From NCBI RefSeq assembly GCF_011038785.1, contig NZ_JAAKDT010000003.1, positions 62,001 through 126,000 of the forward strand: a DNA stretch of 64,000 nt, written 5' to 3'. The stretch is from Parabacteroides sp. ZJ-118. Lineage in GTDB: Bacteria > Bacteroidota > Bacteroidia > Bacteroidales > Tannerellaceae. The notes beneath the pieces were generated by a model. The model was not told the DNA's origin and made no database searches. It saw only the letters and a program-made list of their open reading frames with translations. Shown here one piece after another: positions 2,371-11,573 of this stretch. Numbering within the stretch: position 1 is the first letter of the stretch; each line of letters starts with the position of its first letter. A program made the position numbers and the translations under genes.

Positions 2371-3465
2371 CTACATCAATATCTGTCGAGCGTATTTCAC
2401 GCAAGTACCTACCTCTTTCACGGAATCAGACCAAGGCTTGATAGCATATTCCAGCTCTATATCGCAATAGATAGGCCATTTCTCTTGTTTGATCAACAAG
2501 AGCACGTCTTCCAACGGCATCTCACCTTGTCCCCATACCTGATTCGTATTCGGCTGATCCCCTGTCGTAGGTCCTGTCTTGTCTTTCAGGTGGATACTAT
2601 AGATCCGGTCATGGTATTTCTTGATCATCTCATTCGGATGGATACCTGTAGAGCCAAAGAAGTGACCCGCGTCAAAATTCAACATAATAGAAGGAGAGAC
2701 CGCTAAGATCGGATCGCAACTAAACCCCTCCTCGGCATATTGCATATGATTGTGGAAAGCCATATACATCCCATGCTTTTCGGCGAATGGAGCGACTCTT
2801 TTCGCTGTCTCCAAATTAATCTCGTCCGTTACGGCTTTAGCACCCATGGCCTTGGCCACCTTGAAGGCATAATCAATCTCTTCGTCCGAACCCATACCGG
2901 AAGGTTGCATTTTTACGATATGCACTGATATTCCGGCGTCATTCAATAATTTACGGGCACCTTCTACCTTCGACAGATCTAAGCCGAGACGCCACGCTTT
3001 CAGCTCATCTTTATACTTATCGATCTCAGCCTGCTGCTCCGGAGTAAACTTCGGGGGACCCATCCGACGGGGAGCCGCCGGTTTCTCACCGGGTTTCGCC
3101 GCAGGTTGAGGAGCTTGCTGGCGGAAGAATCGCATCATCGGATTCTCCGGAGCTCCTAAATAAGTTTCCAGATCACTTCCCATCAACTCGATGGAACTGA
3201 TATTCGCCTTTTGGCAATACCTGACGATATTCTCCAATCCACCCGGCATGGAGCGCCAACTGTAAGTGATCGTGCCGATTTGCACGCCACCGAACTTCGA
3301 GTTAACCTTGCCTGCCTCCGTCTCAACCGGAGCGGGAGCCGTCTCTCCCTTTCCCGTACAAGAGAAAGCACTCGGAAGGAAAGACACAGCCGCCAAAGCG
3401 GCGACCGATCTCCCTAGAAACTCACGTCTGGACTGACCATTGTTCACATCTTCATTCATAACCAT
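2371..3465 (-). CDS. Exported sugar phosphate isomerase/epimerase-like TIM-barrel protein
   Basis: A 364-residue protein with a twin-arginine-like leader (SRREFLGRSVAALAAVSFLP) ending in a lipobox-like AFSC, so it is probably exported folded and possibly lipid-anchored. The rest follows the xylose isomerase-like TIM-barrel pattern: FGGVQIGTITYSWRS at the first strand, MAFHNHMQY in the middle, LNFDAGHFFGS, IYSIHLKDK and a late CDIELEY carrying the Glu/Asp/His metal-ligand positions. An insert rich in proline and alanine (about residues 120-150) breaks the barrel after the first third. Related proteins act on 3-keto sugars, inosose or hydroxypyruvate; the substrate here is not known. Two ATGs (MVM) are possible starts. 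Single-gene transcript. Confidence 0.75.
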   Translation of the reverse strand: MVMNEDVNNGQSRREFLGRSVAALAAVSFLPSAFSCTGKGETAPAPVETEAGKVNSKFGGVQIGTITYSWRSMPGGLENIVRYCQKANISSIELMGSDLETYLGAPENPMMRFFRQQAPQPAAKPGEKPAAPRRMGPPKFTPEQQAEIDKYKDELKAWRLGLDLSKVEGARKLLNDAGISVHIVKMQPSGMGSDEEIDYAFKVAKAMGAKAVTDEINLETAKRVAPFAEKHGMYMAFHNHMQYAEEGFSCDPILAVSPSIMLNFDAGHFFGSTGIHPNEMIKKYHDRIYSIHLKDKTGPTTGDQPNTNQVWGQGEMPLEDVLLLIKQEKWPIYCDIELEYAIKPWSDSVKEVGTCVKYARQILM

Positions 3466-3782
3466 TCAATTTATAAATTAACTTTAACTCTTAGAAGAAA
3501 GGCCCCCCCATTCGCCAGCGACACAATCTCCGCCAATTTAGCGGATGCCTCAAATTCATTAGCGGCGAAAATATATAATAGTAAAAAACACAACTTCGCT
3601 TCCTCGTGCGAAACAACGAGAGCAAATATAGAGATGAGCAGTAAACTATGAGTTAACAAACACTAAACAAGGCATTAATACAGGACTAATTTAAGGCTAA
3701 TTTCGTATCTGTGTAAAGCTTAATTCGCACAATAACAGTGAAATAAATAAACTGAAAAATAGTTATAAAAATCTTCGGACAC
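3466..3782. other. Intergenic stretch with one candidate minus-strand -7 box
   Basis: About 317 bases between two minus-strand genes without a credible gene. The only signal I see is TATATTTG on the minus strand at 3623-3630, which fits the -7 consensus for the downstream exported TIM-barrel gene. The nearest TTTG is 26 bases further upstream, longer than the usual 19-21. Short open frames here show no protein-like features. Confidence 0.4.
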
Positions 3783-6440
3783 TTACCGGGTAGATTGCTG
3801 ACTCATCAGCGAAGACGGCACGATTTGCTCAAAAGAGGAGGGGAAAGCCTCGCCATACATCTCCTGGTATAAATCGCAAAAGCGGTCGTACGCATAACGG
3901 GCCAATTTGAAGTTGTTCTGGTAAATCAAGGCTTTGATCTTATAGATCAAAGCCTCCTCGTTGCAAGGATCGTTCAGAAGGATCTGATCGGCTATCTGGA
4001 TCACCCGATCCGCCTCGTTCTCGATCGAGTAGGTGCCGATAAAGCGAGACAAGACATCCACCGTACTATTACAGATATAACTTTTAAAATCATCCATCCA
4101 ATCAAACGATTCCCCTTTGAACACTTCTCCTTTGCTGATAATATCGTAGAAATATTCAAAGTCCGGCTGAGTCCGTACCCGTTTATCTTTCAGCCAATCC
4201 AAGCAAACCAGATAATCGCAATAGACATCTTCCGAAAGCTGGAGGATATATCGATTCGCATTGAATAGGACCTCGATCGTGTCGATACGTTCCAATATCT
4301 TCCGGAGTTTCAATATCGATACGCTTCGAAGGCTCTTCGTACTTTTCGAGGGGTTGTCATTCCCCCAAATCATCCGTGTCAAGTCTCTGCTCGATATTCC
4401 GAACCTCCCGGGGGAAGAGTGAAGCATAATCAAGATAAACAGCTGTTTTAATTTGGGGGTAAATAGAGCGGTTATATCATTTCCATCCCGGTCCAACACA
4501 TAGAACTCTCCAAACAACCGGATGTAATTGCGCAGAACCGGGGCCTCCTCGATCTTCTCCAGCATTTCTTGCGAAGAACGATCCGGCTCCTCGATTTCTT
4601 GCTCGATTCCCTCTTCCGCAACCGTTCCCGCATCAACCTCCTTCTGCCTTGGCTTTCTGTTCACCTTCCGATAGCCTAGATAAGCCATAAAGGCCAAAGC
4701 CATCAAGATCAACCCCATTCCAAGGATATCCAACCAAGTGATCGTATTCGATATATGCAAATCCAATAACTGGTTGCTCAATCCCAATATCTCCTTATCG
4801 CTCAACACACGAGACCAAATACAAAGATTATCCAGCACACCTGCGAAGTTCGAGGACTGACCGAAATTCACGAAGCCGACATATAAGCTATCACTACCTA
4901 GGTAAGCCGGACGATCAAAAGAGACTGCGTCCAGTTTTCCATTCACGAATATAGCCTGCTCCCCATTCCTCTTATTGTACCGCCATACGACATTGTACCA
5001 TTTGCCCGGCTCGATCTCCGTGTTACCAACCAGATCGTTGTTAAAGAATCCCATATACGGTTTCCGGTTCCGTATCAACAGATGCAACGCTTGTTGATAA
5101 GCGCTGTTCTTAGCTCCCAGAATACAATAATCCTCCTTCTCCGGCAGGTACTTAGGTATTTTCAACCAAACGCCGACGGTGAAATCATGATCCCGCATAT
5201 GAAGTTCCGAAGCAGTCGGCAAGTCCACACGGGCCTGATTTTCCAAGGAAGCGACCCGCCCCCGTATAGGATCCTGAATAAACTCGACATGCCTGGATAC
5301 CGTGAGATTGTGATTGGACGAACCATCTTTCTCGTCGCCCTCAAACGGTAAATAAATCTCTATATCCTCGTCGATCCGCAAAGGCCTGGCCTTAAAATCA
5401 CCGGCGAAAGCCTTCCTTCGGATACCGGAAACATAAACCGTGGCTGGCTCTATCCTATAGCCCGGAGAGGTAGGGGAAAGCATCAACTCGGCCCCGGGCT
5501 CTAGCGGGAAACAATATTTACCCGTCGTATAATTAGACATCCCCTCCCAATTCACGTAGTTAAGCAGTTCATTGTTATTCGTAACCGATCCGTAGATGAT
5601 ATCGAAATTCCGGAAAGTGACCAACGAGACATCCAACCACGGGTAATACTTATCTACCAAGACAAAATTGGGAATCCTTCCATCCCGGATCCACGCTCTT
5701 TTAAACGATTCTATTAAATAAGGCGTCTGTCGGGCTAGAGCCGAGATATCATTGCTATTTCCCCGGGAAGTCTCCAGAAACTTATATCCGGTAAATAAAG
5801 ACAAATTCTTTTTCAGCCGTTCATCAAAACCCTCAATTCCTTTCGGTTGGTTTCCCCAATCAGCGTCCGTATGCTCCACGAAATCCCTCATATTATGTAA
5901 CCATGAAGGATTGTTCAAATGCTTCTGAACCTCGAAAACGACCAGTCGCTTTCCGGAACTCAACATATCCTTCAGGGATGGCCATCCATTTTTCGTATCA
6001 TACTCCAGTATATACTCCATCAAGCCTGTTTCCTTAAAAGAGGATTCCAGCCCCGTCTCCACATGAAAATCAAGGAAAAGCGTCATAACCTTGGAGGAGT
6101 CCGCATCCAAGGCCGTTTTAATGGCCTCCAATGATTCACTGAAAGGAGTAAACGTACCATCGGGTTTCCTTAGTAACAATACATTTGTCTCCGCATCCCG
6201 CTTCAAATAGAAATAAAAACCTTCGATCGGTTTCCGCAGCAACTCGTCCAAAGAAAGTTTTTCCGGGAAATTGGAGGATAGACAGGAATAATTAGATAGG
6301 ACATAGACGCTCTCGTTGTATAAAAGACCGGCCTCCACATCCTCTTGACGTTGAGAAACCAAACGTTGTGCCGAAAGTAATTCCGGCATAGTGGTTATAA
6401 TGCTGACAATTAAACATATATAACGAAACTGCGCTATCAT
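3783..6440 (-). CDS. Transmembrane regulator: PI-PLC-like domain, LamG domain, TM helix, SARP-like winged helix
   Basis: An 885-residue protein. I start it at the second ATG, because the promoter match lies downstream of the first one and because this start gives a clean signal peptide (MIAQFRYICLIVSIITTMPE). Residues about 35-270 resemble the PI-PLC X-type phosphodiesterase fold: SLEAIKTALDADSSKVMTLF, then WPSLKDMLSSGKRLVVF, then IPNFVLVDKYY. The positions expected to hold the two catalytic histidines read LSNYS and LLLRK, so it is probably inactive. Residues 355-560 form a LamG/concanavalin-like jelly roll (FTVGVWLKIP, WYNVVWRYN, FVNGKLD). A membrane helix follows at about 565-590. The cytoplasmic part has a winged helix (LFGEFYVLDRDGNDI, LTRMIWGNDNP) and a helical BTAD/TPR-like end, as in SARP regulators. 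Likely an envelope-sensing one-component regulator; the ligand is unknown. Confidence 0.7.
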   Translation of the reverse strand: MIAQFRYICLIVSIITTMPELLSAQRLVSQRQEDVEAGLLYNESVYVLSNYSCLSSNFPEKLSLDELLRKPIEGFYFYLKRDAETNVLLLRKPDGTFTPFSESLEAIKTALDADSSKVMTLFLDFHVETGLESSFKETGLMEYILEYDTKNGWPSLKDMLSSGKRLVVFEVQKHLNNPSWLHNMRDFVEHTDADWGNQPKGIEGFDERLKKNLSLFTGYKFLETSRGNSNDISALARQTPYLIESFKRAWIRDGRIPNFVLVDKYYPWLDVSLVTFRNFDIIYGSVTNNNELLNYVNWEGMSNYTTGKYCFPLEPGAELMLSPTSPGYRIEPATVYVSGIRRKAFAGDFKARPLRIDEDIEIYLPFEGDEKDGSSNHNLTVSRHVEFIQDPIRGRVASLENQARVDLPTASELHMRDHDFTVGVWLKIPKYLPEKEDYCILGAKNSAYQQALHLLIRNRKPYMGFFNNDLVGNTEIEPGKWYNVVWRYNKRNGEQAIFVNGKLDAVSFDRPAYLGSDSLYVGFVNFGQSSNFAGVLDNLCIWSRVLSDKEILGLSNQLLDLHISNTITWLDILGMGLILMALAFMAYLGYRKVNRKPRQKEVDAGTVAEEGIEQEIEEPDRSSQEMLEKIEEAPVLRNYIRLFGEFYVLDRDGNDITALFTPKLKQLFILIMLHSSPGRFGISSRDLTRMIWGNDNPSKSTKSLRSVSILKLRKILERIDTIEVLFNANRYILQLSEDVYCDYLVCLDWLKDKRVRTQPDFEYFYDIISKGEVFKGESFDWMDDFKSYICNSTVDVLSRFIGTYSIENEADRVIQIADQILLNDPCNEEALIYKIKALIYQNNFKLARYAYDRFCDLYQEMYGEAFPSSFEQIVPSSLMSQQSTR

Positions 6441-6470
6441 CCTATACAATATCCCAATTATAAGATCATC

Positions 6471-6501
6471 CAAAAGTAAGGTTTTAATATGACATAACAA
6501 T
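6471..6501 (-). promoter_or_regulatory. Bacteroidetes promoter for the transmembrane regulator
   Basis: On the minus strand ATTG, 19 bases, TACTTTTG. The predicted transcript would begin near 6464, downstream of the first possible ATG (6500), which argues for the ATG at 6440 as the true start. Confidence 0.65.
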
Positions 6502-6561
6502 GCTTTTGGATGATTATCTTCGCATTAGGCAGCTTCCCTGTATGTATGTTTCAGTAGGATA

Positions 6562-6594
6562 ATTGTAGATGTTGTCGAAAAATGTATATCTTTG
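6562..6594 (+). promoter_or_regulatory. Bacteroidetes promoter for the outer-membrane barrel gene
   Basis: ATTG, 21 bases, TATCTTTG, ending 23 bases before the ATG. It is divergent from the regulator promoter about 60 bases away, so the two genes share one short control region. Confidence 0.65.
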
Positions 6595-6617
6595 CTTACT
6601 GTTAGAAGGAAAAGCAA

Positions 6618-7262
6618 ATGAGGAAGTTTATGAGAAAAATCGGAATGTCGCTGATTGCCGTGATGCTGATTGTACCGGCGATGGCCCAGGTCTCTTTCGG
6701 CGTACGTGCCGGAGGCGCTTATTCTTCGTTGATCCAAAAGGTAGACGATCGGTATGAGTCGGGAGCCCGCTTCGGTTTCAGCGTAGCGGGTTTGGCGGAC
6801 ATCCCTTTGAGCAAGAATAAGAAATGGTCGCTTCGTCCCGAGGTGGCGTTCGTGAACCAGGGTGGCGCTTATTACTCGAATCAGGATATGCATGGAATGG
6901 CGCTTTATAACAAATGTTGGTATTACTCTCTGCAGATACCCGTGAATGTGGCATATACATTTACCCTCGCGGATGTTTATCTGTCCGTATTCGTCGGCCC
7001 TACCTTCGATTGGTCCTTGTTTGGCGAGATGAAGAGCCGGGAGACCAATCCGGATCTCCATTTCGGCGTGTCCGAGGAGAAGGATTTGAAACCTTGCGAT
7101 TTTGGTTTGAGTGTTGGCCTGTCGGTGGAGTATAGTAACTTCTTCTTCTCCGTAAGCTCCCTGTGCGGCATGATAGACCGCCGTGCTCTGAAGCGTGACG
7201 GCGAGACTTCCGTTTACCAGAACAACGTGACACTTTCTTTGGGATATTACTTCCGGAAGTGA
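6618..7262 (+). CDS. Outer-membrane beta-barrel protein (PorT/OMP_b-brl-like)
   Basis: A 214-residue protein with a signal peptide (KIGMSLIAVMLIVPAMAQ) and then alternating polar/hydrophobic strands: VSFGVRAGGAYSSL, FGFSVAGLADIPL, LRPEVAFVNQGG, LQIPVNVAYTF, YLSVFVGPTFDW, FGLSVGLSVEY and a terminal VTLSLGYYF. This fits a small eight-stranded outer-membrane barrel of the kind common in Bacteroidetes. The C-terminal aromatic residue pattern agrees with Bam-dependent insertion. It is transcribed divergently from the large membrane regulator, so control by that regulator is a reasonable guess but only an inference. No function is known for this specific barrel. Confidence 0.75.
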   Translation: MRKFMRKIGMSLIAVMLIVPAMAQVSFGVRAGGAYSSLIQKVDDRYESGARFGFSVAGLADIPLSKNKKWSLRPEVAFVNQGGAYYSNQDMHGMALYNKCWYYSLQIPVNVAYTFTLADVYLSVFVGPTFDWSLFGEMKSRETNPDLHFGVSEEKDLKPCDFGLSVGLSVEYSNFFFSVSSLCGMIDRRALKRDGETSVYQNNVTLSLGYYFRK

Positions 7263-7462: not shown

Positions 7463-7918
7463 GTGGATACTTTAAGTTTTAAGACCATTTCTGCAAACAA
7501 GGCAACTGTAAACAAAGAGTGGGTCATTGTTGACGCCGAAGGCCAGACGTTAGGTCGCCTTTGCGCTAAAGTAGCGAAGCTTTTGCGCGGTAAGTACAAA
7601 CCCAATTTCACTCCGCACGTTGACTGTGGTGATAACGTAATCATCATCAATGCAGACAAAGTCGTTCTGACTGGTAATAAGTGGAACGATCGTATTTATT
7701 TGAGATATACCGGATATCCCGGTGGACAGATTGAGTATACTCCGGCTGATCTCTTGAAGAAAGGCGGCGACCGTCTGTTCCGTAAAGTAGTAAAAGGTAT
7801 GTTGCCGAAGAACCGTCTTGGCGCTAAATTGTTAGGCAACATGTACGTGTATGAGGGTACGGAGCACAAGCACGCGGCTCAACAACCCAAGTTAATCGAT
7901 ATAAACTCATATAAATAA
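7463..7918 (+). CDS. rplM: 50S ribosomal protein L13
   Basis: A 151-residue early-assembly protein of the large subunit. It has the family hallmarks VIVDAEGQTLGRLCAKVAKL near the N-terminus, FTPHVDCGDNVIIINA in the middle, and the MLPKNRLGAKLLGNMYVYEG segment followed by HKHAAQQP at the C-terminus. The start is GTG, the first in-frame start after the leader; no ATG fits better. First gene of the rplM-rpsI unit, five bases before rpsI, which is the usual arrangement in bacteria. rpsB and tsf follow on the same strand. Confidence 0.97.
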   Translation: MDTLSFKTISANKATVNKEWVIVDAEGQTLGRLCAKVAKLLRGKYKPNFTPHVDCGDNVIIINADKVVLTGNKWNDRIYLRYTGYPGGQIEYTPADLLKKGGDRLFRKVVKGMLPKNRLGAKLLGNMYVYEGTEHKHAAQQPKLIDINSYK

Positions 7919-7923
7919 TCACG

Positions 7924-8310
7924 ATGGAAGTAGTAAATGCAATAGGAAGACGTAAGGCGGCAGTCGCTCGCGTATTCGTTAGCGAAGGTACGGGAAAGAT
8001 CACGGTCAACAAGCGTGAGCTGGAAAAATACTTCCCTTCTTCAATCCTTCAGTTTATCGTAAAGCAGCCGTTGGCAAAGTTGAACGTCGCGGAGCAATAT
8101 GATATTAAGATCAACCTTGACGGTGGGGGTTTTAAAGGTCAGTCTGAGGCTGCCCGTTTGGCTATCGCTCGTGCGTTGGTAAAGATTAATCCGGAAGACA
8201 AGGCCGTCTTGAGAGCGGAAGGATTCGTAACGCGCGATCCTCGTGCTGTTGAGCGTAAGAAACCGGGGCGTCCGAAAGCTCGTAAGAGATTCCAGTTCAG
8301 TAAACGTTAA
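7924..8310 (+). CDS. rpsI: 30S ribosomal protein S9
   Basis: A 128-residue small-subunit protein whose basic C-terminal tail reaches the P-site tRNA. Recognised by AIGRRKAAVARVFVSEGTGKI at the start, GGGFKGQSEAARLAIARAL in the centre, and the terminal RDPRAVERKKPGRPKARKRF ending in QFSKR, the conserved tail. It is five bases downstream of rplM and clearly cotranscribed with it. Length and sequence are normal for Bacteroidetes. Confidence 0.97.
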   Translation: MEVVNAIGRRKAAVARVFVSEGTGKITVNKRELEKYFPSSILQFIVKQPLAKLNVAEQYDIKINLDGGGFKGQSEAARLAIARALVKINPEDKAVLRAEGFVTRDPRAVERKKPGRPKARKRFQFSKR

Positions 8311-10379: not shown

Positions 10380-11573
10380 TTATTTTAATGCGGCCAACGC
10401 ATCCTTAATGCGTTTGATCGCCTCCGTGATATTCTCATCGCTGGTAGCATAGCTCATGCGGATACATTCAGGCGCACCGAAAGAGGTACCGCCTACGCAG
10501 GCTACATGCGCTACTTCCAAGAGATACATCGCTAAGTCGTCCGCGTTATTGATCACCCGGGGTCCATCGGTCTTACCGTAGTAATAACTACATTTGGGGA
10601 AGAGGTAGAAAGCGCCTTCCGGTTTGTTAACCTCCAGGCCCGGAACTTCTTTCGCCAAATTGACGATTAAGTCGCGACGGCGTTCGAAAGCCTTGCGCAT
10701 CTCCTCGACGGGTTCCTGTGAGCCCGTATAAGCCGCTTCCGCCGCTTTTTGAGATACGGAGCAAGGGCCGGAGGTATATTGTCCTTGTAGTTTATTAACC
10801 GCTTTCACGATCCATTCCGGTCCGGCGATGAAACCGATACGCCAGCCGGTCATCGCGTACGCTTTGGAAACGCCGTTTACGATTACCGTACGGTCTTTCA
10901 TCCCTTCGATAGAAGCGATACTGTTGTGTTTGCCGATATAGTTGATATGTTCATAGATCTCATCCGCGATAACGATGATATCCGGATGTTTTTTCAATAC
11001 GTCCGCCAAACCTGCCAGTTCCTCGGCGCTGTAAACAGAACCCGTCGGGTTGGAGGGTGAGCATAGGATCAACGCTTTTGTCTTGGGTGTAATGGCCGCT
11101 TCCAACTGAACCGGAGTGATCTTGAAATTCTGCTCGATACCAGCCGGGACGATAACGGGAGTGCCTTCCGCCAGCTTCACCATCTCCGGATAGCTTACCC
11201 AGAAAGGAGCTGGGATGATAACCTCGTCCCCCGGATTTACCAATACCATGACTGTGTTACAAACGGATTGCTTGGCGCCGTTCGCGCAAGAGATCTGGCC
11301 TGCTGTATATTCCAGTCCATTCTCGTTCTTCAATTTGGCGACGATGGCATCGCGCAATGCCGGGTAACCCGCTACGGGAGAATAACGCGAGAAGTTGTCG
11401 TCAATCGCCTTCTTCGCGGCTTCTTTAATGAAGTCGGGAGTATTGAAATCGGGTTCTCCCACACTTAAATTGATAATATCGATGCCTTGAGCTTTCAACT
11501 CGCCGCTCTTTTGTGACATCGCCAATGTTGCTGAGGGCGATAAACTCGCTAAACGATCTGAGACTTGTGTCAT
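10380..11573 (-). CDS. aspC: Pyridoxal-phosphate aspartate aminotransferase (class I)
   Basis: A 397-residue fold-type I aminotransferase interconverting aspartate and oxaloacetate, or a close relative. Seen: the N-terminal IINLSVGEPDFNTP, the cofactor contact NPTGSVYSAEE, VIADEIYEHI with the Asp that holds the pyridine nitrogen, the Schiff-base lysine in GVSKAYAMTGWRIGF, and the substrate-carboxylate arginine in the CIRMSYA tail. This is the I-gamma (thermophile-like) subgroup pattern. Substrate range could also include prephenate or kynurenine. It sits nine bases after ribBA, at the end of an operon lptF-ribBA-aspC. Confidence 0.9.
   Translation of the reverse strand: MTQVSDRLASLSPSATLAMSQKSGELKAQGIDIINLSVGEPDFNTPDFIKEAAKKAIDDNFSRYSPVAGYPALRDAIVAKLKNENGLEYTAGQISCANGAKQSVCNTVMVLVNPGDEVIIPAPFWVSYPEMVKLAEGTPVIVPAGIEQNFKITPVQLEAAITPKTKALILCSPSNPTGSVYSAEELAGLADVLKKHPDIIVIADEIYEHINYIGKHNSIASIEGMKDRTVIVNGVSKAYAMTGWRIGFIAGPEWIVKAVNKLQGQYTSGPCSVSQKAAEAAYTGSQEPVEEMRKAFERRRDLIVNLAKEVPGLEVNKPEGAFYLFPKCSYYYGKTDGPRVINNADDLAMYLLEVAHVACVGGTSFGAPECIRMSYATSDENITEAIKRIKDALAALK

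Follow-up and report, generated by a model that had tools for sequence, protein, structure and literature searches.

Target promoters of the SARP activators of Actinobacteria (AfsR, EmbR, PimR and ActII-ORF4 belong to this family) carry direct repeats placed 11 or 22 bp apart, with 8 bp between the 3′ repeat and the −10 element (excerpt of PMC10936776), and the PimR operator consists of heptads separated by 4-bp spacers (excerpt of PMC5930380). In Bacteroidetes, TAnnTTTG is given as the −7 box of the sigma factor (excerpt of PMC7366714). Here we describe a locus of Parabacteroides sp. ZJ-118 where repeats of this kind stand next to the gene of a sensor-like membrane protein. The DNA analysed is a stretch of 64,000 nucleotides (contig NZ_JAAKDT010000003.1, positions 62,001 to 126,000), called the window in what follows; the regulator, its candidate operator and its predicted target all lie on the minus strand. 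The regulator gene (3783..6440, product P0001) is an intact open reading frame of 885 codons, with its ATG at 6440 and a stop ending at 3783, as supported by the alignment of seven full-length sequences. With a probability of about 0.7, we propose that its product is a membrane-spanning one-component activator of the SARP type, carrying a sensor made of a dead phosphatidylinositol-specific phospholipase C (PI-PLC) and a LamG domain, and controlling the downstream gene or operon through the array of repeats. The fold, the loss of the active site, the linkage to an operon and the operator array with its grammar rest on computation.

The ectodomain fold and its substituted active site

The N-terminal ectodomain is a PLC-like TIM barrel of the PI-PLC fold (residues ~26-282, 5595..6365). 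The window protein itself has no match to PF00388 in Pfam at E ≤ 10, and the gathering score of this family is not reached. The bridge to the family is a protein from another locus, L037 (such loci carry L numbers below). A profile of seven ectodomain sequences, A2, retrieves it at E 3.6e-17 from a sample of 393 order-level genomes; L037 stands above the PF00388 cut-off (38.6 vs 23.1 bits) and, used alone as the query of a reverse search, returns the window protein at E 1.1e-14. Profile A2 had no match among PDB sequences at E ≤ 10, so that a comparison of folds was needed. In the AlphaFold model of the ectodomain, made from eight sequences, pLDDT averages 50; the ten-residue blocks between residues 41 and 120 average 70-93, while the second half is poor, so that only the first half is confident. 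Compared with the PDB by Foldseek, this model has bacterial PI-PLCs or eukaryotic phosphoinositide PLCs as its top 17 matches (best E 1.6e-3, probability 1.0), and the 50 rows listed by VIA are all PLCs, with Z between 7.6 and 10.0. A PI-PLC-like N-terminus, which the preliminary description had read from the letters of the sequence, is thus borne out by both comparisons and by the L037 bridge.

The active site was followed in an alignment that joined 13 sensors to 15 PLC-like enzymes retrieved from genomes of the own order and class. The enzymes have His, Asn, Arg and Asp at four columns, each in 15/15, then His in 14/15 and a further His, again in 14/15. At these six columns the window protein has Asn50, Tyr51, Glu73, Tyr78, Leu90 and Gly218: all five main active-site columns (His, Asn, Arg, Asp, His) are substituted, and residues belonging to the fold are kept (Trp153, Pro154, Arg165, Phe169 and Asn258). 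Asn50 (codon 6291..6293), aligned with the first catalytic His, lies inside LSNYS; Leu90 (codon 6171..6173), aligned with the second, adjoins Arg91 inside LLLRK. These are the two motifs within which the histidines had been said to be replaced, and the earlier placement was right to within one residue; the PLC fold is present and no histidine occupies the superimposed positions. Eighteen added sequences brought the set to 31, in which L088 is counted though it is enzyme-like and not a sensor. The first-His column holds Asn in 21 of these 31 sequences and His in three (L038, L083 and L088). Loss of the active site across the sensors is thus general, not total, and L038 and L083 may be intermediates in it. 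Judged from these substitutions, the PI-PLC-fold domain of the window protein is a pseudoenzyme, predicted to be catalytically dead. L088 (7683-9137) codes for a PLC-like protein of 484 residues with the THN and His motifs and a Por_Secre_tail, without the regulator end, and its gene lies 3′ of a SusD-like gene; it is possibly an active, secreted relative.

The heptad array and the cytoplasmic end

Between the regulator gene and the AP_endonuc_2 gene that follows it, lag, matrix and genome scans delineate a candidate operator (3631..3700): six heptads follow one another at exact 11-bp steps, and 8 bp separate the last from a −7 promoter box, TATATTTG (3623..3630; consensus TAnnTTTG). The whole, 3623-3700, is the sole site of the 3.17-Mb genome at ≤3 mismatches, and it follows the SARP operator grammar, 11-bp steps and 8 bp to the box, with six repeats. 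A model-free test counted matches at a given lag in 66-bp segments (15 lags, 500 shuffles). Lag 11 was the best of the 15 in the window and in L018, L019, L023, L031, L051 and L052, where 0-3 of the 500 shuffles reach it; the test is not clear in L048, L049 and L050b (121, 42 and 43 of 500 shuffles, respectively), where the first step is 12 bp. A heptad matrix was then scored with one lineage left out at a time and 300 shuffles per locus, the training boxes and heptads being hand-picked from the same loci. The held-out score lies above 300/300 shuffles in eight of ten loci, and one shuffle in 300 reaches that of L051. When period and distance were varied together over 63 combinations, the pair (11, 8) had a mean of 14.0, the next one −2.6. 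Scans of whole loci (12.9-64 kb) used a matrix built from all training loci except L023, hence in-sample for the nine loci where the array is the top match (15-30 vs ≤6 elsewhere); L052 scores on the opposite strand of the same array too (14.7), and L023 is missed. L053, outside the training set, has its array at 14.4 vs 7.1 for the next match.

In nineteen arrays, counted after exclusion of L018, L019 and L077 as near copies, 86 of the 95 steps measure 11 bp and 17 of the 19 distances measure 8 bp, values that the fit itself favours. Inside the array, the heptads match the TAA core at 2.76 of 3 positions on average; one step further upstream this falls to 0.53, and at two steps it is 0.74. 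The array is therefore taken to have six heptads, no more. Position, co-occurrence and fold together lead us to infer that the regulator binds this array. As an observation apart, L018 (~7830-7985) and L019 (~10668-10823) display tandem TGCCA...TGGCA units, read by eye, between the regulator stop and the operator; the window has none.

A new set of 18 further loci was drawn from the family of G177. Because L077 nearly duplicates L051 (97% in the gene that follows), the set provides nine independent loci with the operon described below. There, the rigid scan of whole loci places the array as top match in eight of ten operon loci. When the scan is confined to the gap behind the regulator and made flexible, with 10-12 bp steps and 7-9 bp distances allowed and deviations penalised, it finds the array in all ten with a matrix from the earlier loci (0/100 shuffles each). 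It also detects the array in L023, L053 and L087; in L053 (10173-10468) and L087 (7528-7830), the arrays of these paralogues are directed at facing glycoside hydrolase and sulfatase genes. No array was found in L020, L021, L050a, L088 and L090-L094, the negatives of L091-L094 being weak, with gaps of 92-110 bp. L089 is borderline (11.9, 0/100 shuffles, shuffle maximum 11.2) and is not claimed as an array; in L022 the best score is 2.2 within the 12.5 kb scanned, the contig ending inside the regulator gene with the array side outside the scan. Relatives that share the DNA-binding end only (L024, L072-L076) have no array of comparable score, the best being 6.4, which is why we claim it for the PLC-headed group only. 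As the new set showed, targets can be predicted from the sequence itself by way of the six-heptad array.

The cytoplasmic end is called SARP-like here from the Foldseek ranking of its model. It comprises a winged-helix-like DNA-binding region (residues ~637-745, 4206..4532), delineated by sub-threshold sequence matches and Foldseek at low pLDDT, and a BTAD/TPR-like region (residues 770-856, 3873..4133), delineated by sub-threshold Pfam matches, Foldseek and VIA. In the cytoplasmic AlphaFold model, made from seven sequences, pLDDT averages 60 and the BTAD part reaches 80-92; its first five Foldseek matches are three chains of AfsR and two of EmbR (E 2.6e-3 to 3.3e-2). Membership of the SARP family stays sub-threshold by sequence: the window protein matches the AfsR model far below the cut-off of that model, and no SARP was among the PDB sequences retrieved with the cytoplasmic profiles A5 and A6. 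The same membrane and DNA-binding end occurs in other Bacteroidales under other sensor parts (L009-L011, L013 and L014), with Kelch-type matches in L010, the one such relative checked in Pfam. Such differing sensor heads suggest a larger class of regulators with exchangeable sensors.

Layout of the regulator and genes behind it

The protein probably begins with a signal peptide (residues 1-25, 6366..6440), read by eye as a hydrophobic stretch ending in SAQ. The barrel is followed by a short beta-rich linker domain (residues ~283-352, 5385..5594), known from strands in the AlphaFold model at low pLDDT, which by eye looks transthyretin/Ig-like. The next domain is a LamG (Laminin_G_3) jelly roll (residues 402-551, 4788..5237; Pfam E 1.1e-14, 55.2 bits vs a gathering score of 27.6), with matches to pentraxin-3. 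A single membrane helix (residues ~566-590, 4671..4745) corresponds to the one strong internal hydrophobic stretch of the hydropathy profile. Both the jelly roll and the single pass had been foreseen in the preliminary description.

The regulator is single-copy in its own genome (search at E ≤ 10). Full-length relatives, 93-50% identical, are present in seven of 35 genomes of the genus, its own counted; the alignment of seven sequences, A1, is full-length, and L006 is cut by a contig end. A copy of 92.5% identity in a record of P. distasonis carries no annotation beyond LamG-like jellyroll protein. When 395 genomes sampled from the phylum were searched, with no more than five candidates scored in each, the matches listed at E ≤ 1e-4 came from the own genome alone, and therefore the family looks narrow. 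A scan of viral contigs found no relative of the regulator.

Outside Parabacteroides, 24 regulator loci were compared (L031, L048-L053 and L077-L094 less L088; L030, truncated by a contig end, is not counted), their operon genes being called by BLAST against reference genes, with Pfam run on three fusions. In 15 of the 24, a same-strand operon follows the regulator, led by a relative of a NapC/NirT cytochrome-FGE fusion and continued by two Gfo/Idh/MocA relatives; in L050 two small genes intervene. ThuA, AP_endonuc_2 and other members vary among loci. PF06439, the 3-keto-disaccharide hydrolase family, is present in L082 and L084, the two loci checked, and L082, which lacks the cytochrome, has a set of Gfo, PF06439 and AP_endonuc_2 genes. 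In L053 and L087 the regulator faces sulfatases and a relative of a glycoside hydrolase, and L089-L094 are distant paralogues in other settings, among which a Gfo gene adjoins L092 and L093. The NapC/NirT-FGE-sulfatase fusion at the head of the 15 operons (e.g. L048:6641-8182, L051:5542-7080 and L031:8774-10300) is an unusual one. In nine of the genomes, Gfo genes number between 13 and 36, or about one every 0.19-0.35 Mb; adjacency of regulator and Gfo gene by chance should therefore be rare.

In Parabacteroides, an AP_endonuc_2 gene stands behind the regulator in four of the six loci where the downstream side is present, and the Gfo gene is intact in two of these four (L018 and L023). The window has lost it: a 57-bp remnant (3510..3566), recognised by comparison with the intact gene of L018, is what stays. 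L019 has a deletion with different break points (10963-11343), also leaving a remnant. In both cases the regulator, the operator and the AP_endonuc_2 gene are all kept. In the window this last gene (2371..3465), coding for a sugar isomerase/epimerase-like protein of 364 residues with a Tat-like signal read by eye, is the predicted target, from Pfam and its neighbourhood. The orthologues at L020, L021 and L022 sit behind a PorV-like gene, named from a sub-threshold Pfam match in L020, the one checked. By its predicted genes, the conserved operon is of the 3-keto-glycoside type and points to glycosides as the ligand class; an inositol lipid is possible. The glycoside route is supported because 3-ketotrehalose hydrolase activity is ascribed to BT2157, which belongs to PF06439 (excerpt of PMC9007349).

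Proposed mechanism, rival explanations and known systems

In the mechanism that we propose, a ligand (a glycoside or related cyclitol being the likeliest) would bind the pseudo-PLC barrel and LamG outside the inner membrane, and the single helix would relay the signal to the cytoplasmic SARP-like domain, winged helix and BTAD. Protomers would assemble, as the six repeats suggest, with several SARP-like domains lining up on the six 11-bp-spaced heptads, all on the same side of the DNA helix and spanning the −33 region. By analogy with AfsR, the bound domains would bring RNA polymerase to the TAnnTTTG box, 8 bp beyond the last heptad. As the target we expect the gene or operon behind the regulator, of the 3-keto-glycoside type in most relatives examined; in the window genome it would be the AP_endonuc_2 gene only, because the oxidoreductase gene has been deleted. 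Binding of the ligand, the direction of control, attachment to the array and oligomerisation are the parts of this scheme that we infer. A bolder version, in which Bacteroidales possess membrane SARP activators that use a dead PI-PLC as their glycoside or cyclitol receptor and fire a 3-keto-glycoside operon by ligand-driven assembly of six protomers on the array, is tentative, rather doubtful at present. What weakens it is the much stronger conservation of LamG relative to the barrel.

To be sure, a number of observations weigh against the proposal of a membrane-bound SARP-type activator with a dead PI-PLC/LamG sensor. Neither the ectodomain nor the cytoplasmic model gets a Foldseek match at 1e-3 or better, much of the winged-helix half lies under pLDDT 50, and VIA puts AfsR and EmbR level with unrelated TPR proteins. 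The winged helix with a BTAD-like tail announced in the preliminary description is suggested by the Foldseek ranking; in Pfam the BTAD part falls below the cut-off, at E 0.25 for the whole protein and 0.041 for the domain alone. Five of the seven members of A5 match BTAD at E ≤ 1 (best 4.7e-5), as do 3 of 22 sequences of the wider set at E ≤ 0.1 (best 0.0078). On the DNA side, L023 fails the rigid grammar (100/300 shuffles), L078 and L081 are missed under it and pass only with variable steps, and L092 and L093 have no array despite a neighbouring Gfo gene, in gaps of just 92 and 109 bp. L020 and L021 keep the regulator without operon and without array. Two sensors, L038 and L083, retain the first catalytic His and the Asp. 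Finally, LamG is the best-conserved part of the regulator: in the seven closest sequences (A1), 58% of its columns are invariant (87/150), vs 27% for the barrel (70/257); the winged-helix region has 50% and the BTAD region 43%. LamG may for this reason be the main sensing part.

Taken further, this contrast in conservation would make the barrel a structural spacer only, its active site being lost, and LamG or a partner protein the true sensor. Such an explanation is a serious contender, short of an even chance: against it, the barrel is retained across Bacteroidales, and the Asn so frequent at the first-His column suggests that a pocket was kept. That the ectodomain is still an enzyme using other residues is, at the opposite end, scarcely credible. 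The histidine and aspartate retained in L038 and L083 could be invoked for it, as could the Asp found in 23 of the 31 sequences (Asp124 in the window protein) at a column where the enzymes conserve Glu, but in the window protein the first His, the following Asn, the Arg, the Asp, the second His and the third His column are all substituted. Another DNA-binding protein might own the six-heptad array, since SARP membership of the regulator by sequence is weak. This is unlikely: the array lies in the gap adjoining the regulator gene in 21 loci and two genes downstream in L050, its spacing is that of SARPs, and it is absent at the operon-less orthologue loci L020 and L021. Divergent gene pairs often associate a regulator with its target, and an outer-membrane barrel gene (6618-7262), which the preliminary description had put forward as a target, diverges from the regulator across a 177-bp gap. 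It is very improbable as the main target: this gene is not beside the other relatives examined, there is no array of the six-heptad kind at 6441-6617, and the sole array of the window lies on the other side of the regulator (3623-3700).

The activator proposed here, sensor, operator and operon together, amounts to a concrete circuit for a 3-keto-type glycan route. If true, the SARP operator rule would carry over from the soluble activators of Streptomyces to membrane sensors of Bacteroidota, both gut and environmental, where a pseudoenzyme serves as a receptor or part of one. Among the literature matches listed, which are weak evidence of absence, none describes a SARP that is membrane-bound or from Bacteroidota, a PI-PLC-headed regulator or a six-heptad Bacteroidota operator; each module is known already, and what would be new is their combination and the six-heptad Bacteroidota operator.

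With the bacterial PI-PLCs and PLC-like phosphodiesterases of PF00388, the regulator shares the TIM-barrel fold and the WP..RLVVF and PNF motifs; unlike them, it has substituted catalytic residues and is fused to LamG, a membrane helix and a DNA-binding end. SusR-like and HTCS regulators of Bacteroides also span the membrane. They are sensor regulators special to Bacteroidetes that control sugar genes (excerpt of PMC3878776). The regulator differs from HTCS in having no histidine kinase or receiver domain match in Pfam at E ≤ 10, and from SusR in the spacing of its sites, which for the predicted SusR motifs is 67 or 77 bp, not 11 bp (same excerpt). A relation with the regulator of the BT2156-BT2160 cluster was considered at first and then abandoned; the excerpt of PMC3878776 calls BT2160 SusR-like. 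The pathway genes for 3-keto-glycosides (3-ketotrehalose or 3-ketolactose) with DUF1080/PF06439, a family to which BT2157 and CCNA_01705 belong (excerpt of PMC9007349), resemble the operon by their Gfo/Idh/MocA, ThuA-like and AP_endonuc_2 members and by the PF06439 genes of L082 and L084, whereas the operon adds the NapC/NirT-FGE fusion and the regulator. A likeness to SARPs may lie in the cytoplasmic end, with AfsR and EmbR as its top Foldseek matches, and is seen in heptads at 11-bp steps whose 3′ repeat is 8 bp from the −10 or −7 box (excerpts of PMC10936776 and PMC5930380). By contrast with SARPs, however, the regulator spans the membrane, carries an extracytoplasmic sensor, has its DNA-binding part at the C-terminus and not at the N-terminus, and resembles them by sequence only below threshold; its putative operator has a Bacteroidota −7 box and six heptads, where the same excerpts describe two or three.

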